Part shown: positions 5,839-13,578 of the stretch, piece by piece
Position numbering within the stretch: position 1 is the stretch's first letter
How the letters are laid out: each line of letters opens with the position of its first letter
IMG/VR virus record: IMGVR_UViG_3300013100_000031
Coordinates: 1-23,915 of that record
Source: a virus
Length of the DNA stretch: 23,915 nucleotides
Strand: one strand, 5' to 3'
The notes under the pieces: generated by a model
Databases searched by the model: none
The model's input: the letters and a program-made list of their open reading frames with translations, nothing else
What the model was told of the DNA's origin: nothing
Translations under genes and position numbers: made by a program

Positions 5839-6285
5839 TCATCTACTAATTCTAGATGCATGTCCTGCATCAATCTGTAATAGTCTAGCAATTTCTTTAA
5901 TTTGTACACCTAAACTTCTTAAAAATTTTGCTAGTTCATAATCTTTATCAGTAAGTTTTTGTGATCCAGGTTTATTTCTTTTCTTGTTAACCATATCTCT
6001 CATATTATCTTTATGGCTACCAATAAATAAATGATCTGGATTTACACAAGATGTATTATCACATTTATGACATACGGATAATGGGGATGATAAATCAAAA
6101 TCTCTGTAAATATGAAGGCTTACTCTATGTGCAAATTGTGATTTCTTTTTCATCCCAAATATATGAAAATGTCCATAACCTCTGTTATGTTTACCAGCAA
6201 TCCAATTCCAACAATTGGTTATAGGATCAACTTCAAATTTTTCTTCAAACCTCTCAATTATTGGTCTATATCTCTTACCTGTCAT
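5839..6285 (-). CDS. HNH homing-type endonuclease with C-terminal HTH
   Basis: A 148-aa free-standing HNH nuclease. An N-terminal CWNW...GYGHF module (25-40) precedes H53, then CHKC (72-75), C80, PDHL (83-86) and HKDN (91-94). This is the HNH_3-type zinc-supported active site seen in phage homing endonucleases. The C-terminal 45 residues (LTDKDYELAKFLRSLG, then IKEIARLLQI) read as a helix-turn-helix DNA-binding tail. It begins three bases after the nrdA stop, as expected for an element that inserted next to a conserved RNR gene. It does not interrupt NrdA, whose C-terminal motifs are complete. It cleaves DNA, and its recognition site cannot be told from the window. Confidence 0.88.
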   Translation of the reverse strand: MTGKRYRPIIERFEEKFEVDPITNCWNWIAGKHNRGYGHFHIFGMKKKSQFAHRVSLHIYRDFDLSSPLSVCHKCDNTSCVNPDHLFIGSHKDNMRDMVNKKRNKPGSQKLTDKDYELAKFLRSLGVQIKEIARLLQIDAGHASRISR

Positions 6286-9743: not shown

Positions 9744-10523
9744 TTATACAGCATTAGTCAAGAGTGACTTAGCTTTCTCCTTGGGGTATTCAGTATAACG
9801 GGTTCTAGACCAACCACCACAATCAGTACATTGGAAACGAGTGTACTTACCAACATTGGTGTAGGCATATCCTCTACGATGTAATCTATCAGAACAACAC
9901 TTAGGACAAACATGTTCATCACTTCCAATATGAACAGCAAGATTAGCATGGTTCCTAATCCAAGGACGCATAGTCTTGTATACATCTCTTACTGAAAGTG
10001 TATCAACAATGTTATATTCCCTCATTTCCTTCCAAGCTTCTTCATCCCCTTGCATACAAGCTAACCAGAGTTCAAAGCCGGGATACTTAGCATGAGTTAG
10101 TTTCTTGTGCTTAGTCTTAAGGACAGTCGTGAGATATTCGAGAGAATTTGATGGGAATCCAAACTCTTTCCGTGCAACAAGACATGTGTCAACTGTTTTG
10201 TAAGGACTCGGGGGTTTAAGACCAGCCACAAGAGCACGTCCATTAATTGTGGGAAGGTCAAACCTGTCAGAGTTCTGACCAATAACCACATCGGCTTCAT
10301 CCAAGAGGGCAAGGAGCTTAGCAGTAATGTCAACATCATCATCTGAACGGTTCTCATGATATATAACTTTGTCATCCGCATCATCATTCCAAATCCATGA
10401 GAAGGACATAATATGTGTGTGTTCTTTGAGTTGTTTAACACCAATATTCTCTTTAAACAAACGCCATACATAACCTAAGTTTGGTGAAGTTTCAATATCT
10501 AAATAACCTATTTTAACTACCAT
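9744..10523 (-). CDS. DnaQ-like 3'-5' exonuclease with C-terminal zinc ribbon
   Basis: RNase H-fold DEDD-type nuclease. Motif I is YLDIETS (D9, E11), motif II is GQNSDRFDLP (D89), and motif III is the YNIVDT segment (D174 with a downstream helix). The last 55 residues add a zinc ribbon (C206, C209 and C232, C235; CPKC and CTDC), which probably aids DNA binding. I place the start at ATG 10523, because AAGGA lies 8 nt upstream and this puts motif I at the N-terminus as in the family. An upstream in-frame start at 10565 would overlap the HNH gene and has no site. It probably degrades host DNA or trims intermediates. Its 5' end overlaps the HNH gene by 11 nt. Confidence 0.88.
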   Translation of the reverse strand: MVVKIGYLDIETSPNLGYVWRLFKENIGVKQLKEHTHIMSFSWIWNDDADDKVIYHENRSDDDVDITAKLLALLDEADVVIGQNSDRFDLPTINGRALVAGLKPPSPYKTVDTCLVARKEFGFPSNSLEYLTTVLKTKHKKLTHAKYPGFELWLACMQGDEEAWKEMREYNIVDTLSVRDVYKTMRPWIRNHANLAVHIGSDEHVCPKCCSDRLHRRGYAYTNVGKYTRFQCTDCGGWSRTRYTEYPKEKAKSLLTNAV

Positions 10524-10947
10524 CAAGTAATTCCTTAATAAAATCACGCAACTCAATAGCTTCATCTAGAGTTTTGCAACTTTTTGGTGAGTGGTATACA
10601 TGATTTCTAGAAAATCTAATAACATAACAACCGTCAATTAATCTAATGTTTTTATGACCTAAGTAATTATCTTTTCTAGTTCTTGTATTAATCATTTGTT
10701 CGGATCTAGTTGACCATTTACAATTATCAGGACTATACCCTAAGGAATTATCTATCCTATCAAGTTCTTTTCCTTTTGGTCTTGGTCCCATATCATTTAT
10801 AAAATTTAAACTAGAATGTAACCATCTATCACAAACTGAAATACCTCTACCTCCATAATGATGGTATGAAATATTCTTAGGGTTATAACATCTTTGTTTC
10901 ATATCTGACCAAACATGCCTTAAATTTTTATGTTGCACTTCTATCAT
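10513..10947 (-). CDS. HNH endonuclease (GGRGI/LDRIDN type)
   Basis: A 144-aa free-standing nuclease with the recognisable phage pattern YGGRGISVCDRW (31-42), NDMGPRPKG (51-59), ELDRIDN (61-67), YSPDNCKWST (71-80) and EQMINTR (83-89). A C-terminal region with beta-strand character (VIRFSRNHVYHS) followed by a helix may be an AP2-like DNA-binding tail. It lies between the DUF5664 gene, which it overlaps by 20 nt, and the DnaQ-like exonuclease, which it overlaps by 11 nt, and it supplies that gene's ribosome binding site. Probably a mobile element that homes into this locus. Its target is not visible. Confidence 0.87.
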   Translation of the reverse strand: MIEVQHKNLRHVWSDMKQRCYNPKNISYHHYGGRGISVCDRWLHSSLNFINDMGPRPKGKELDRIDNSLGYSPDNCKWSTRSEQMINTRTRKDNYLGHKNIRLIDGCYVIRFSRNHVYHSPKSCKTLDEAIELRDFIKELLDGS

Positions 10948-11332: not shown

Positions 11333-11513
11333 ATCCGTCACGAGTAATCCTCTGATACATTTCTGAAATTTGATTGCGTTCTGTTTCTGTAAAACTCCCG
11401 GCGTATTTGGTAGCCGCTTTAACACCCTTCTCTTTCATAACATTAAAGATCATTGCACACCGATTCCATGTGCGTAGCTCTGGATTAGTAATGTCTGTAA
11501 ATCTATTAGTCAT
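11274..11513 (-). CDS. Hypothetical protein, 79 aa
   Basis: ATG 11513 follows an AAGGA site by 7 nt and overlaps the upstream HNH stop by 8 nt. The 79-aa product (MTNRFTDITNPELRTWNRCA at the N-terminus, then KGVKAATKYAGSFTETERNQ) is charged and mainly helical, with an Asn/Gln/Ser/Thr C-terminus. It overlaps the DUF5664 gene by 59 nt in another frame. Its C-terminal residues are low-complexity, so the last part may be constrained mainly by the overlapping frame. No family is recognised. Confidence 0.62.
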   Translation of the reverse strand: MTNRFTDITNPELRTWNRCAMIFNVMKEKGVKAATKYAGSFTETERNQISEMYQRITRDGYEQTRAAINRNVQSTTIAA

Positions 11514-11925
11514 TTAGTTTTTCCTTCGCTCGTCTGAGCTTGGCAATCTCAATTTCTTCTTGAGATTTAATCTTATGGCAACTGCCACATAAAAGCTGTA
11601 AGTTATCTAACTCACAGAACATATTTTCTATAGTGCTATCCCATGATACCCAGCCAATTTCTGGGTCAATAATTGGTTTGATGTGATCTACGTATATATT
11701 ATTTACTCGCTTACGTTTATTTTCATCAAACACTGTAGGAGGTACTTCTTGGTCACAACATTCACATTTATATAAGCCCCTAGCTATATTAGCTCTCTTC
11801 TTACAGAGCTGTATAGGAGACCATTTTCTTGTTGCTGATCTAAGTTGATTTTTTATGAAGCTTCTATATTCAGCCTCTGTCCACTTTCCATTACATCTAG
11901 TATTTTCACCACGGGGACGTCCGAT
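11506..11925 (-). CDS. HNH endonuclease (T7-like type) with apparent non-canonical start
   Basis: Reading the frame upstream of a GTG at 11733 reveals the rest of a conserved HNH nuclease: GRPRG, KWTEAEYRSFIKNQLRSAT, RKWSP, CECC (C54, C57), the VDHIKPI core (D80, H81), W95, MFC, and LLCGSCHK (C113, C116, H117). This is the family found in T7-like phages, whose members begin close to an RPRG or WTEAR motif. No ATG, GTG or TTG exists in frame between the upstream stop (11938-11940) and 11733. An AGGAGG at 11932-11937 is followed six bases later by ATC (11923-11925), which would give IGRPRG as the N-terminus. ATT (11926-11928) is another option but is only 3 nt away. Initiation at 11733 would delete half the domain. 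The gene starts inside the 5'-3' exonuclease gene. Confidence 0.75.
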   Translation of the reverse strand: MGRPRGENTRCNGKWTEAEYRSFIKNQLRSATRKWSPIQLCKKRANIARGLYKCECCDQEVPPTVFDENKRKRVNNIYVDHIKPIIDPEIGWVSWDSTIENMFCELDNLQLLCGSCHKIKSQEEIEIAKLRRAKEKLND

Positions 11926-12851
11926 AATATACCTCCTTCAGGCCACCCATAAAATTTTAAACTGCCATCTTCATTAAGTTCTCTAATCATCCAAAGTAAG
12001 TCGGTTTGTTCCCTGAGAGCGTTCTCCCATACTTCTCCAAAGACTTCTTCATACGCCTGTTTAACTGCCTTAAAGCATTCAACTTCTGATCCGCACTCAG
12101 CAAGGAGTTTGTATGCAAACGCTGGCCCTTTTTTTGGCAGTCCCGGAATGTTGTCAACAGTGTCTCCAGTGATAAGTTGTGCATAGAAGAACTTAAGTCC
12201 TGTTCCTCTGAGCTTCTTGGGACTTCCTTGTGATATTTCAAGGTGTCCAAGTTCATCAACAAAGGTTGGTCCAAACTGTTCTTGTTTTCCACATTGCCAT
12301 CCATAGTGCCACCCCGGACACATTCTAAGGTCTTTATCACGACTGCAACAGATTAGTTTTGAACCTAGGGAATATTGCTGTCCAAGTAATCCATCTTGAT
12401 AATCTCTGAATAAGTTAATGCAAATTAGATCATCAGCTTCCATGCCATCAGTAACAATACAATCATACTGACTAAGCATGTATGCTCTTAGATTATGGAA
12501 ATGATAAGGCTTCTCTTGCTTACGATTACCTTTGTAAGGTTTAGTCTTAGCAATATCCTTTCTGAAGTTAGGTTTAAATACCTTAACTTCTTCACCCTCT
12601 CTAATCCTACTTCTATTGATATGATAGAGAAGCTTTTCATCACCAGTTAAATATAATATAGGCTCTTCATCACTATTACACTCAGCAACTATCTCCTTAA
12701 TCTTCTGATCTAGATGTTCAGAAACAGAGTCAAAAGGTTTGATGATTAGATTTTCTCTTTTAGTATCTTCTGGTTCGTAATACTGACCACAGCTAGCTAT
12801 TTCATAGCTGAGCTAAAGAATGTCGGCGTCGATTAAGCATCGAAGTGACAT
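11853..12851 (-). CDS. T7-type 5'-3' exonuclease (FEN-like) with in-frame amber at codon 13
   Basis: ATG 12851, with AAGGAGG eight bases upstream, opens MSLRCLIDADIL, the metal-binding N-terminus of FEN/T7 gp6-like exonucleases. TAG (12813-12815) follows in frame. The same frame then continues unbroken as LSYEIASCGQ and onward for about 320 codons. It carries GDEKLL, KPYKGNRKQEKP, MEADDLI, SRDKDLR and LITGDTVDNIPGLP (the helical DNA-binding turn). All are well conserved, so the downstream part is under selection. No usable start lies between the TAG and 12479, and starting there would lose essential motifs. If a ribosome passes from CTT over TAG to CTC, the product would read IDADIL-SYEIASC, the family's normal spacing. 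Otherwise the gene is broken. Its last 24 codons overlap the next HNH gene. Confidence 0.82.
11932..11937 (-). promoter_or_regulatory. Strong Shine-Dalgarno (AGGAGG) for the HNH gene inside the exonuclease frame
   Basis: A perfect AGGAGG on the - strand, followed by T. It lies within codons for Glu-Gly-Gly of the exonuclease and six bases before the candidate ATC start. Its strength is what makes a rare AUU/AUC start credible. Confidence 0.6.
12790..12815 (-). promoter_or_regulatory. Stem-loop starting at the in-frame amber codon (candidate recoding element)
   Basis: On the - strand the 26 nt beginning with TAG fold as TAGCT, a bulged C, then AGCTAT, loop GAA, ATAGCT, AGCTG: six perfect pairs, one bulge, then four pairs and a terminal U-G. 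The stop codon and the next codon CTC lie in the 5' arm. The preceding codon is CTT, so synonymous Leu codons flank the stop. A hairpin with a stop just after the take-off codon is also a feature of T4 gene 60 bypassing. Confidence 0.5.
12822..12839 (-). repeat. Diverged copy of exonuclease 5' codons (CLIDAD), downstream copy
   Basis: These 18 nt encode C-L-I-D-A-D. They match 12 of 18 bases with 13413-13430 (C-L-I-D-A-E). Apart from the last base, every difference is synonymous. The copies flank the HNH gene. Confidence 0.55.
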
Positions 12852-13436
12852 TCAGTTATCCTCCTTACCAAGTCCAGTTAACCAACCCCAGTTCTTACCC
12901 ATCTTGATCTTATGGATAGTGTGGTTTGTGACACCAAAGAGACAACCTATTTCAAATAGGTCTAACTTAAGTGGCCCTGTTTGCTGCAATAATCTAACAA
13001 TTTCTAACACTTGCTTTTCGGTTAACTTAGATGTTCCAGAGTTTTCACCTCTGAATTTCTTGTTACTGTGCAATGCATTTTGTGATCGTGTACACCATTC
13101 TAAATTATCCACCCAATTATCAGCCTTTTCCTCATTTAAGTGGTTGACTTCTGGACAATTGTTTGGATTAGGAATAAAAGCTTTTGCTACAAGTCTGTGT
13201 ACACTACATAGCTTTCCTACACCATCTTGATACAGCAACACCTGCACGTAACCGATACTATTGGTTTGACGTTTAAGCTCACAACCATTCCTAAACCTAT
13301 AATATGGCATTGGATGACGACCATGCATCAACTCTTTTCTATCAACACTTCGCACTCTTCCGTGAGTGCTTACTTGATACACACCATCATAATCCTCTAT
13401 GTCAGCCCACAACTCAGCGTCAATCAGACATTTCAT
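12852..13436 (-). CDS. NUMOD4-HNH homing endonuclease fused to exonuclease-like first codons
   Basis: A 194-aa nuclease. The NUMOD4 motif (ELWADIEDYDGVYQVSTHGR) lies at 8-27 and the HNH_3 core, VHRLVAKAFIPNP (79-91) followed by EVNHLNEEKADN (96-107) and NLEWCTRSQN (111-120), follows it. A C-terminal HTH (IGCLFGVTNHTIHKIKMGKN) occupies 163-182. NUMOD4 proteins normally begin close to the ELW motif. Here the codons before it spell MKCLIDA, nearly identical to the exonuclease N-terminus MSLRCLIDAD that restarts at 12851. I chose the third of three tandem ATGs (13436), with GAGG six bases upstream. The gene thus uses what was probably the original exonuclease start. It ends with GGAGGATAACTGA, providing the ribosome binding site for the exonuclease. 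Confidence 0.88.
   Translation of the reverse strand: MKCLIDAELWADIEDYDGVYQVSTHGRVRSVDRKELMHGRHPMPYYRFRNGCELKRQTNSIGYVQVLLYQDGVGKLCSVHRLVAKAFIPNPNNCPEVNHLNEEKADNWVDNLEWCTRSQNALHSNKKFRGENSGTSKLTEKQVLEIVRLLQQTGPLKLDLFEIGCLFGVTNHTIHKIKMGKNWGWLTGLGKEDN
13413..13430 (-). repeat. Diverged copy of exonuclease 5' codons (CLIDAE), upstream copy in the HNH gene
   Basis: The partner of 12822-12839. It encodes C-L-I-D-A-E at codons 3-8 of the HNH gene and is probably a remnant of the original 5' end of the exonuclease gene. Confidence 0.55.
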
Positions 13437-13578
13437 CATCATCCTCAATATACGTTGGACATACATCCCCCTCACGAAGCTGCCGAAGGCGCTGTCTATG
13501 CGCCTTGGTTTGTGCTCGTTCTTCTATCTCTTCCTTAGTTGGTTTCGACTTTAAAGTCTGTACTTTCTGCTTGTCCAC
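13420..13578 (-). CDS. Hypothetical charged protein, 52 aa
   Basis: A frame overlapping the 3' end of the 108-aa gene by 44 nt and the HNH start by 17 nt. It fills the only space between them. The product has a basic helical centre (EEIEERAQTKAHRQRLRQLR) and an acidic tail (IEDDDEMSD). The GTG start at 13578 has AAGGA upstream. TTG 13581 is an alternative. If the HNH inserted later, this gene originally overlapped the exonuclease start. The function is unknown. Confidence 0.55.
   Translation of the reverse strand: MDKQKVQTLKSKPTKEEIEERAQTKAHRQRLRQLREGDVCPTYIEDDDEMSD

Follow-up and report, generated by a model that had tools for sequence, protein, structure and literature searches.

The in-frame TAG near the start of a viral 5'-3' exonuclease gene is very probably part of a programmed ribosomal bypass, that is a stop hop which a 5' stem-loop assists and which homing-endonuclease cassettes have disseminated. 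The gene lies in a stretch of 23,915 nucleotides (here called the window); it is part of an IMG/VR virus record, and its relatives are mainly Zobellviridae-type podophages. Comparison with related loci suggests that the site is probably one member of a mobile, widely distributed family of miniature bypass elements, which would be the first natural stop hops. These elements appear to have entered one catalytic coding site repeatedly, together with two kinds of HNH endonuclease, and in some cases to have persisted after the endonuclease was lost; they would carry a spring-like stem-loop directly behind the take-off codon. To our knowledge, T4 gene 60 is nearly the only phage case of programmed bypassing that has been studied. 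Here the hop signal is compact and comes in many natural variants, with three stops, several take-off codons and varied gap lengths. Some of these variants belong to lytic phages in culture, among them Phriendly of Vibrio natriegens, and the ribosome's requirements for hopping thus become directly testable. The family would also illustrate how a catalytic coding site can be invaded by a selfish endonuclease while the gene stays usable, and it would mean that annotation pipelines truncate or miss such exonucleases.

The original prediction had described an ATG at 12851, a TAG at codon 13 between CTT and CTC, and a frame that stays open afterwards. All of this held, with 319 further codons following the TAG before the frame ends at TAA 11853. 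The uninterrupted phage nearest to the window (L001, 73% identity over the aligned exonuclease body) reads MMMKCLIDADIL-SYEISSCGQ without the extra bases, and therefore the 6 nt in the window are an insertion; as had been anticipated, the alignment with L001 reads DIL-SYE without the six bases. Three features had gone unnoticed at first reading: an HNH gene whose TGA abuts the exonuclease ATG, a duplicated and recoded exonuclease 5' end, and a conserved 5' stem-loop. The features of the region, all on the minus strand, are as follows.

13414 to 13442, minus strand: former 5' end of the exonuclease (ATGATGATGAAATGTCTGATTGACGCTGA), with which the HNH gene now begins; equals the L001 exonuclease start except for synonymous changes in a Cys and an Asp codon
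12852 to 13442, minus strand: NUMOD4-HNH homing-endonuclease-type gene, starting at ATG 13442, 13439 or 13436, its stop TGA abutting the exonuclease ATG (Pfam NUMOD4 8.6e-12, HNH_3 2.7e-7; phrog_59 2e-44)
12860 to 12866, minus strand: Shine-Dalgarno sequence AAGGAGG of the exonuclease (SD energy -11.9)
12816 to 12851, minus strand: recoded replacement 5' end of the exonuclease, MSLRCLIDADIL; ATG 12851 opens 12 codons whose coding differs from the captured copy
12819 to 12852, minus strand: conserved 5' stem-loop, 12 bp in the window, with the start codon inside it, ending directly before the predicted take-off codon
12816 to 12818, minus strand: predicted take-off codon CTT (CTT in 13/16 and CTG in 3/16 in-frame carriers)
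12813 to 12815, minus strand: stop codon TAG, codon 13 of the exonuclease (carriers use TAG, TAA or TGA)
12810 to 12812, minus strand: predicted landing codon CTC (CTN in 16/16 in-frame carriers)
12790 to 12815, minus strand: 3' hairpin of the original prediction, local and not conserved
11853 to 12809, minus strand: body of the FEN-like 5'-3' exonuclease, resuming at AGC 12809 (phrog_107 4e-60)

Comparison with L001 shows that the HNH gene of the window opens with the original exonuclease codons (MMMKCLIDA-E). L001 has no HNH gene, and its exonuclease reads MMMKCLIDADILSYEISSCGQYYEPED. It follows that the HNH gene took over the old start and that the exonuclease now has a second, differently coded 5' end plus six extra bases. 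Relatives of this HNH gene lie at the equivalent place ahead of the exonuclease in L041, L042 and L008; in L008 and L042 the NUMOD4-HNH gene precedes an exonuclease without the stop. Three further HNH genes were found in the window (5839-6285, 10513-10947 and 11506-11733). The start of the one at 11733 is probably further upstream, at a non-ATG codon within the exonuclease 3' end (cf. L001:5864-6304). No second copy of the exact hop sequence of the window turned up in the viral contigs searched.

Relatives were gathered in three ways: through similarity of the exonuclease, through similarity of the HNH, and with a single DNA pattern that includes the stop. Only the matches to that pattern (L030, L034, L035 and L038) were selected with a condition on the codon preceding the stop; L375, from a bacterial MAG, joined the set later through a homology-free scan. 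Many carriers are metagenomic. Among the 187 exonucleases whose 5' end could be read, 22 have a stop at exactly this site, directly 3' of the predicted take-off codon in every case. Sixteen lineages keep the frame, each with CTN-stop-CTN and 6 extra nt, and all three stops are in use among them:

CTT TAG CTC: window, L035
CTT TAG CTT: L030, L034, L038, L076, L299, L300, L305
CTT TAA CTT: L041
CTG TGA CTA: L046, L051
CTT TGA CTC: L120
CTG TGA CTG: L141
CTT TAG CTA: L301
CTT TAG CTG: L298

In L046, L120 and L141 the hop would occur one codon later (ILL-stop-LYE). The arrangement CTN-stop-CTN was present at 5 of 1817 ordinary ORF ends of the same loci, compared with 16/16 distinct in-frame exonuclease carriers. 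CTT served as the presumed take-off codon in 14 of 17 cases (the 16 in-frame carriers plus Phriendly), while uninterrupted genes had it at the equivalent Leu in 33 of 127 (p=1e-5, assuming independence, which is not fully given since the cassette moves; the same holds for the other p-values). On the exonuclease tree, the scatter of the stop requires at least 15 changes on supported branches. A stricter rule that take-off and landing codons share an isoacceptor (CTT to CTY, CTG to CTR), suggested by the first 11 cases, was broken by L301 (CTT to CTA) and L298 (CTT to CTG), and only the CTN box holds.

If the stop were simply read by a near-cognate tRNA, two extra residues (X-Leu) would be added to the protein. 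The unchanged frame in 16 lineages suits such readthrough, as does the C that follows the stop, a leaky context, but a CTN landing codon forces that C in any case. Readthrough leaves unexplained why CTN stands on both sides and never TTA or TTG, why all three stops are used, and why a stem-loop is set against the codon before the stop. Furthermore, four carriers change the frame, and readthrough cannot explain these. We consider readthrough unlikely as an account of the element. A suppressor tRNA was also discarded, as none was found in the window and three different stops are used.

The frame-changing carriers are L294 (= L202), Phriendly (L293), L296 (= L086) and L282. In L294 the site reads GAT TAG ATATT, and a five-base hop from this GAT to the next (GAT-TA-GAT) would restore LIDAD-ILLYEIG. 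Phriendly is an isolated podophage of V. natriegens (PMC6776788). Relative to its HNH-free relative KIT05 it has a 7-nt insertion, reading GACATTCTTTGACCTACGTTATGAG where KIT05 reads GACATCCTACGTTATGAG, and a move from CTT to CTA would restore the DCDILRYELG of KIT05 exactly. In L086/L296 (8-nt insertion) and L282 (4-nt insertion) the stop is at the same site and the landing codon is poorly matched, so that matched landing codons restoring the ancestral peptide were found in two of the four. The proposal that a peptidyl-tRNA leaves CTT and lands on CTC, giving IDADIL-SYEIASC, thus gains support from comparative sequence: the CTN/CTN pair occurs in 16/16, the insertion is exactly what the hop would remove, three stops are used, and the GAT/GAT and CTT/CTA pairs would restore the ancestral peptide.

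The hop site CTTTGAC of Phriendly is identical to the core of the prfB (RF2) +1 frameshift site, and hopping and frameshifting could mix there. A programmed +1 frameshift of this type (CUU UGA C, at a CTTT-stop) could be proposed for at least some carriers, CTT being the commonest take-off codon. It would, however, miss the correct frame in each of the 16 in-frame carriers, the window included; take-off codons CTG, GAT, GAC and ATT also occur; and in Phriendly itself two residues absent from KIT05 would be inserted. We judge this explanation very improbable.

We then folded the 45 nt preceding the take-off codon. A stem-loop of 9-16 bp ending 0-1 nt ahead of take-off was present in 20/20 carriers (two carrier pairs are near-copies, hence n=20 in the stem tests) and in 38 of 155 stop-free genes (p=2e-11, a value to be taken as indicative since the test was framed after the first folds). 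This concern is answered in part by a register control, in which shifting the reference point by +3 nt left 0/20 carriers, and by an arm swap, in which a 3' arm combined with the 5' arm of another carrier reached native energy in 0 of 2000 trials. The stem end tracks the take-off codon across all three registers. The 5' stem shows covariation, with pair types that differ along it and pairing that is kept. Synonymous randomisation of the short reading frame weakened the fold in carriers (Stouffer z -5.8), as opposed to +1.3 and +1.2 in two control groups. For reference, the 5' stem-loop of the T4-type control ELT1 folded at -10.8 kcal/mol.

Carriers also have a near-consensus Shine-Dalgarno sequence. 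Its median energy was -12.1 kcal/mol in carriers, compared with -5.6 in non-carriers and -6.1 in HNH-flanked genes without the stop (p=1.4e-6 for carriers against the latter). Stem-loop and strong Shine-Dalgarno are common to carriers and missing from HNH-flanked genes without the stop. The start codon lies within the stem or next to it, and a strong Shine-Dalgarno may therefore serve initiation through the stem, or it may offset incomplete hopping.

The element originally assigned to the hop was a different one, namely a 26-nt stem beginning at the TAG. This stem does exist, with -9.7 kcal/mol, a value reached by 8 of 200 shuffles, but the conserved signal proved to be the 5' stem-loop adjoining CTT. 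The expectation that related phages would keep TAG, the CTT/CTC pair and this stem was borne out for the stop and the CTN pair, which recur in 16 lineages, and failed for the 3' stem: downstream of the stop, carriers had a mean z of -0.60 and non-carriers one of -0.45 (p=0.41). A conserved 3' hairpin was accordingly rejected as a signal.

The gene itself encodes a FEN-like 5'-3' exonuclease. An AF2 model of the L001 orthologue matched ExoIX, T4 RNase H and T5 D15 (its input alignment covered the collected loci), and the EADD and DKD motifs are invariant; a sequence search of solved structures yielded nothing useful. In the model the hop site falls in the first turn of helix alpha1, adjoining the N-terminal catalytic strand. 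The residues inserted by readthrough would sit there, and two added residues would probably be costly.

The main alternative had been that a 6-nt insertion simply broke the gene. A scar left behind by HNH insertion would look like this, with the disrupted gene stopping after 12 codons. The equivalent lesion with matched codons nevertheless occurs in many lineages, the Shine-Dalgarno and stem-loop are specific to carriers, and dN/dS points to purifying selection (0.17 for window vs L001, 0.05 for L041 vs L044, 0.11 for Phriendly vs KIT05 and 0.03 for L301/L302, which both have the stop). Downstream of the stop dN/dS was 0.03-0.18 in pairs including carriers. The 0.03 obtained for L301/L303 does not prove selection beyond the stop, since these two align as a mosaic, and L141/L375 and L301/L302 were used instead. 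No second exonuclease was found in the whole records of the Vibrio phages 177E37-1 and Phriendly. Given this recurrence, the purifying selection and the presence of the stop in lytic phages with one exonuclease gene, a dead gene is highly unlikely.

An HNH endonuclease gene lies directly upstream in 20 of 22 carriers and in 16 of 161 non-carriers (p=6e-15). In about 12 of 12 independent pairs differing in the stop, HNH and stop went together (about 12:0). Two unrelated HNH types take part. The 16 HNH-flanked genes that are stop-free indicate that HNH does not require the stop. Among genes of this kind, Escherichia phages Bas93 and ECBP2 (L290, L291) have the same type of HNH directly ahead of a stop-free exonuclease with a weaker Shine-Dalgarno, and provide natural negative controls. 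Conversely, L034, L141 and L375 keep the hop site without an HNH gene directly upstream. L141 and L375 share 69 identical nt, from AAGGAGG to 26 nt past the first take-off base, although the bodies of the two exonucleases have 79% identity, saturated dS and a dN of 0.15; a recent exchange of just this 69-nt block is possible. L034 has, besides its 5' stop hop site, an HNH domain inserted in frame in the middle of the exonuclease (L034:10101-11420), stop-free. In Vibrio phage PS32B.2 (L045) the exonuclease is annotated in two pieces (1201-1602 and 1639-1992), split at another site, unlike in its sister L048.

Compared with its empty-site sisters L043 and L044, Vibrio phage 177E37-1 (L041) is entirely new from the HNH gene to TAACTTCGT, and the DNA matches again from ATGGAAGTCGG. 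L301/L302 and L303 share the HNH gene, the hop site and about 250 nt nearly unchanged, and diverge beyond, a mosaic as would be expected from homing with co-conversion. As judged from these alignments, an HNH gene at a conserved site, the empty site in close relatives and flanking co-conversion identify a homing-endonuclease cassette, its cleavage activity being putative.

HNH genes are often hosted by group I introns, and removal of the insert at the RNA or DNA level, by self-splicing or through transcriptional slippage, might in principle restore the frame. The window gave no Rfam matches at gathering thresholds, there is no intron core and no room for one between HNH gene and exonuclease (TGA directly followed by ATG), and slippage would lack a homopolymer. 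Such removal is extremely unlikely.

Relatives that are proof against readthrough, the abutting 5' stem-loop, the carrier-specific Shine-Dalgarno, the HNH association and the block shared by L141 and L375 all favour a bypass element. We propose that ribosomes initiate at the very strong Shine-Dalgarno and read 12 codons, which leaves peptidyl-tRNA-Leu on CTT and places TAG in the A site. The tRNA would then release, the mRNA would slide by 6 nt and the tRNA would re-pair with CTC; synthesis would restart at AGC and yield a normal IDADIL-SYEIASC exonuclease. Since the 3' arm of the stem ends directly before take-off and the stem can close only on leaving the ribosome, it probably pulls the mRNA forward, similar to what is proposed for the 5' stem-loop of T4 gene 60, which zips up behind the ribosome (PMC5009743). 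The HNH cassette would insert at the conserved coding site between LIDAD and IL, appropriate the original exonuclease start as that of the HNH gene (as seen in the window and L041) and supply a recoded replacement 5' end. By analogy with the T4 gene 60 insert, which may have protected from cleavage (2016 review, PMC5009743), the altered site probably also resists the endonuclease.

According to a 2016 review (PMC5009743), constructs have demonstrated in-frame stop hopping, and no natural occurrences are known. The synthetic E. coli stop hops, in which 9 nt encode one amino acid, likewise have matched codons around the stop (PMC5009743), but these were test constructs. In the literature searched, in which subscription papers are few, no earlier report of this element was found. 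Magnusiomyces mitochondria bypass 81 short inserts in protein-coding genes (PMC5009743); that system is mitochondrial, seemingly context-independent and relaxed in codon match, in contrast to the matched codons and structured signal in bacterial viruses found here. In Aeh1 mobE-split nrdA and T4 mobA-split topoisomerase the insertion of a homing endonuclease likewise hits a critical coding site (PMC2988022), but those proteins are made as separate pieces. In the exonuclease the 5' end has been duplicated and recoded, and the hop, as we propose, does the joining.

T4 gene 60 with MobA is the closest parallel. In both, the bypassed ORF is directly preceded by an HNH endonuclease gene, the stop immediately follows the take-off codon, the landing codon is matched and a 5' stem-loop lies upstream of take-off. 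They differ in that the T4 gap is 50 nt and leads into another frame, while here 2-4 nt separate the matched codons, mostly without change of frame. Bypassing in T4 depends on a KKYK motif in the nascent peptide and on a take-off stem-loop; in the exonucleases the nascent chain would have about 10-17 residues, and the LIDAD-type motif is conserved for catalysis regardless of any nascent-peptide role. A gene 60-type take-off stem-loop containing the stop is present in the window and not conserved in carriers. Because this stem-loop is a stimulator in gene 60 and not what defines bypassing, its lack bars the gene 60 subtype only. The 5' stem abuts take-off here, but the main helix of the T4 type ELT1 ends about 9 nt earlier, and a single gene is affected in T4 as opposed to many lineages here. 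Taken together, the sequence comparison is best explained if the exonuclease element is a miniature analogue of T4 gene 60/MobA.
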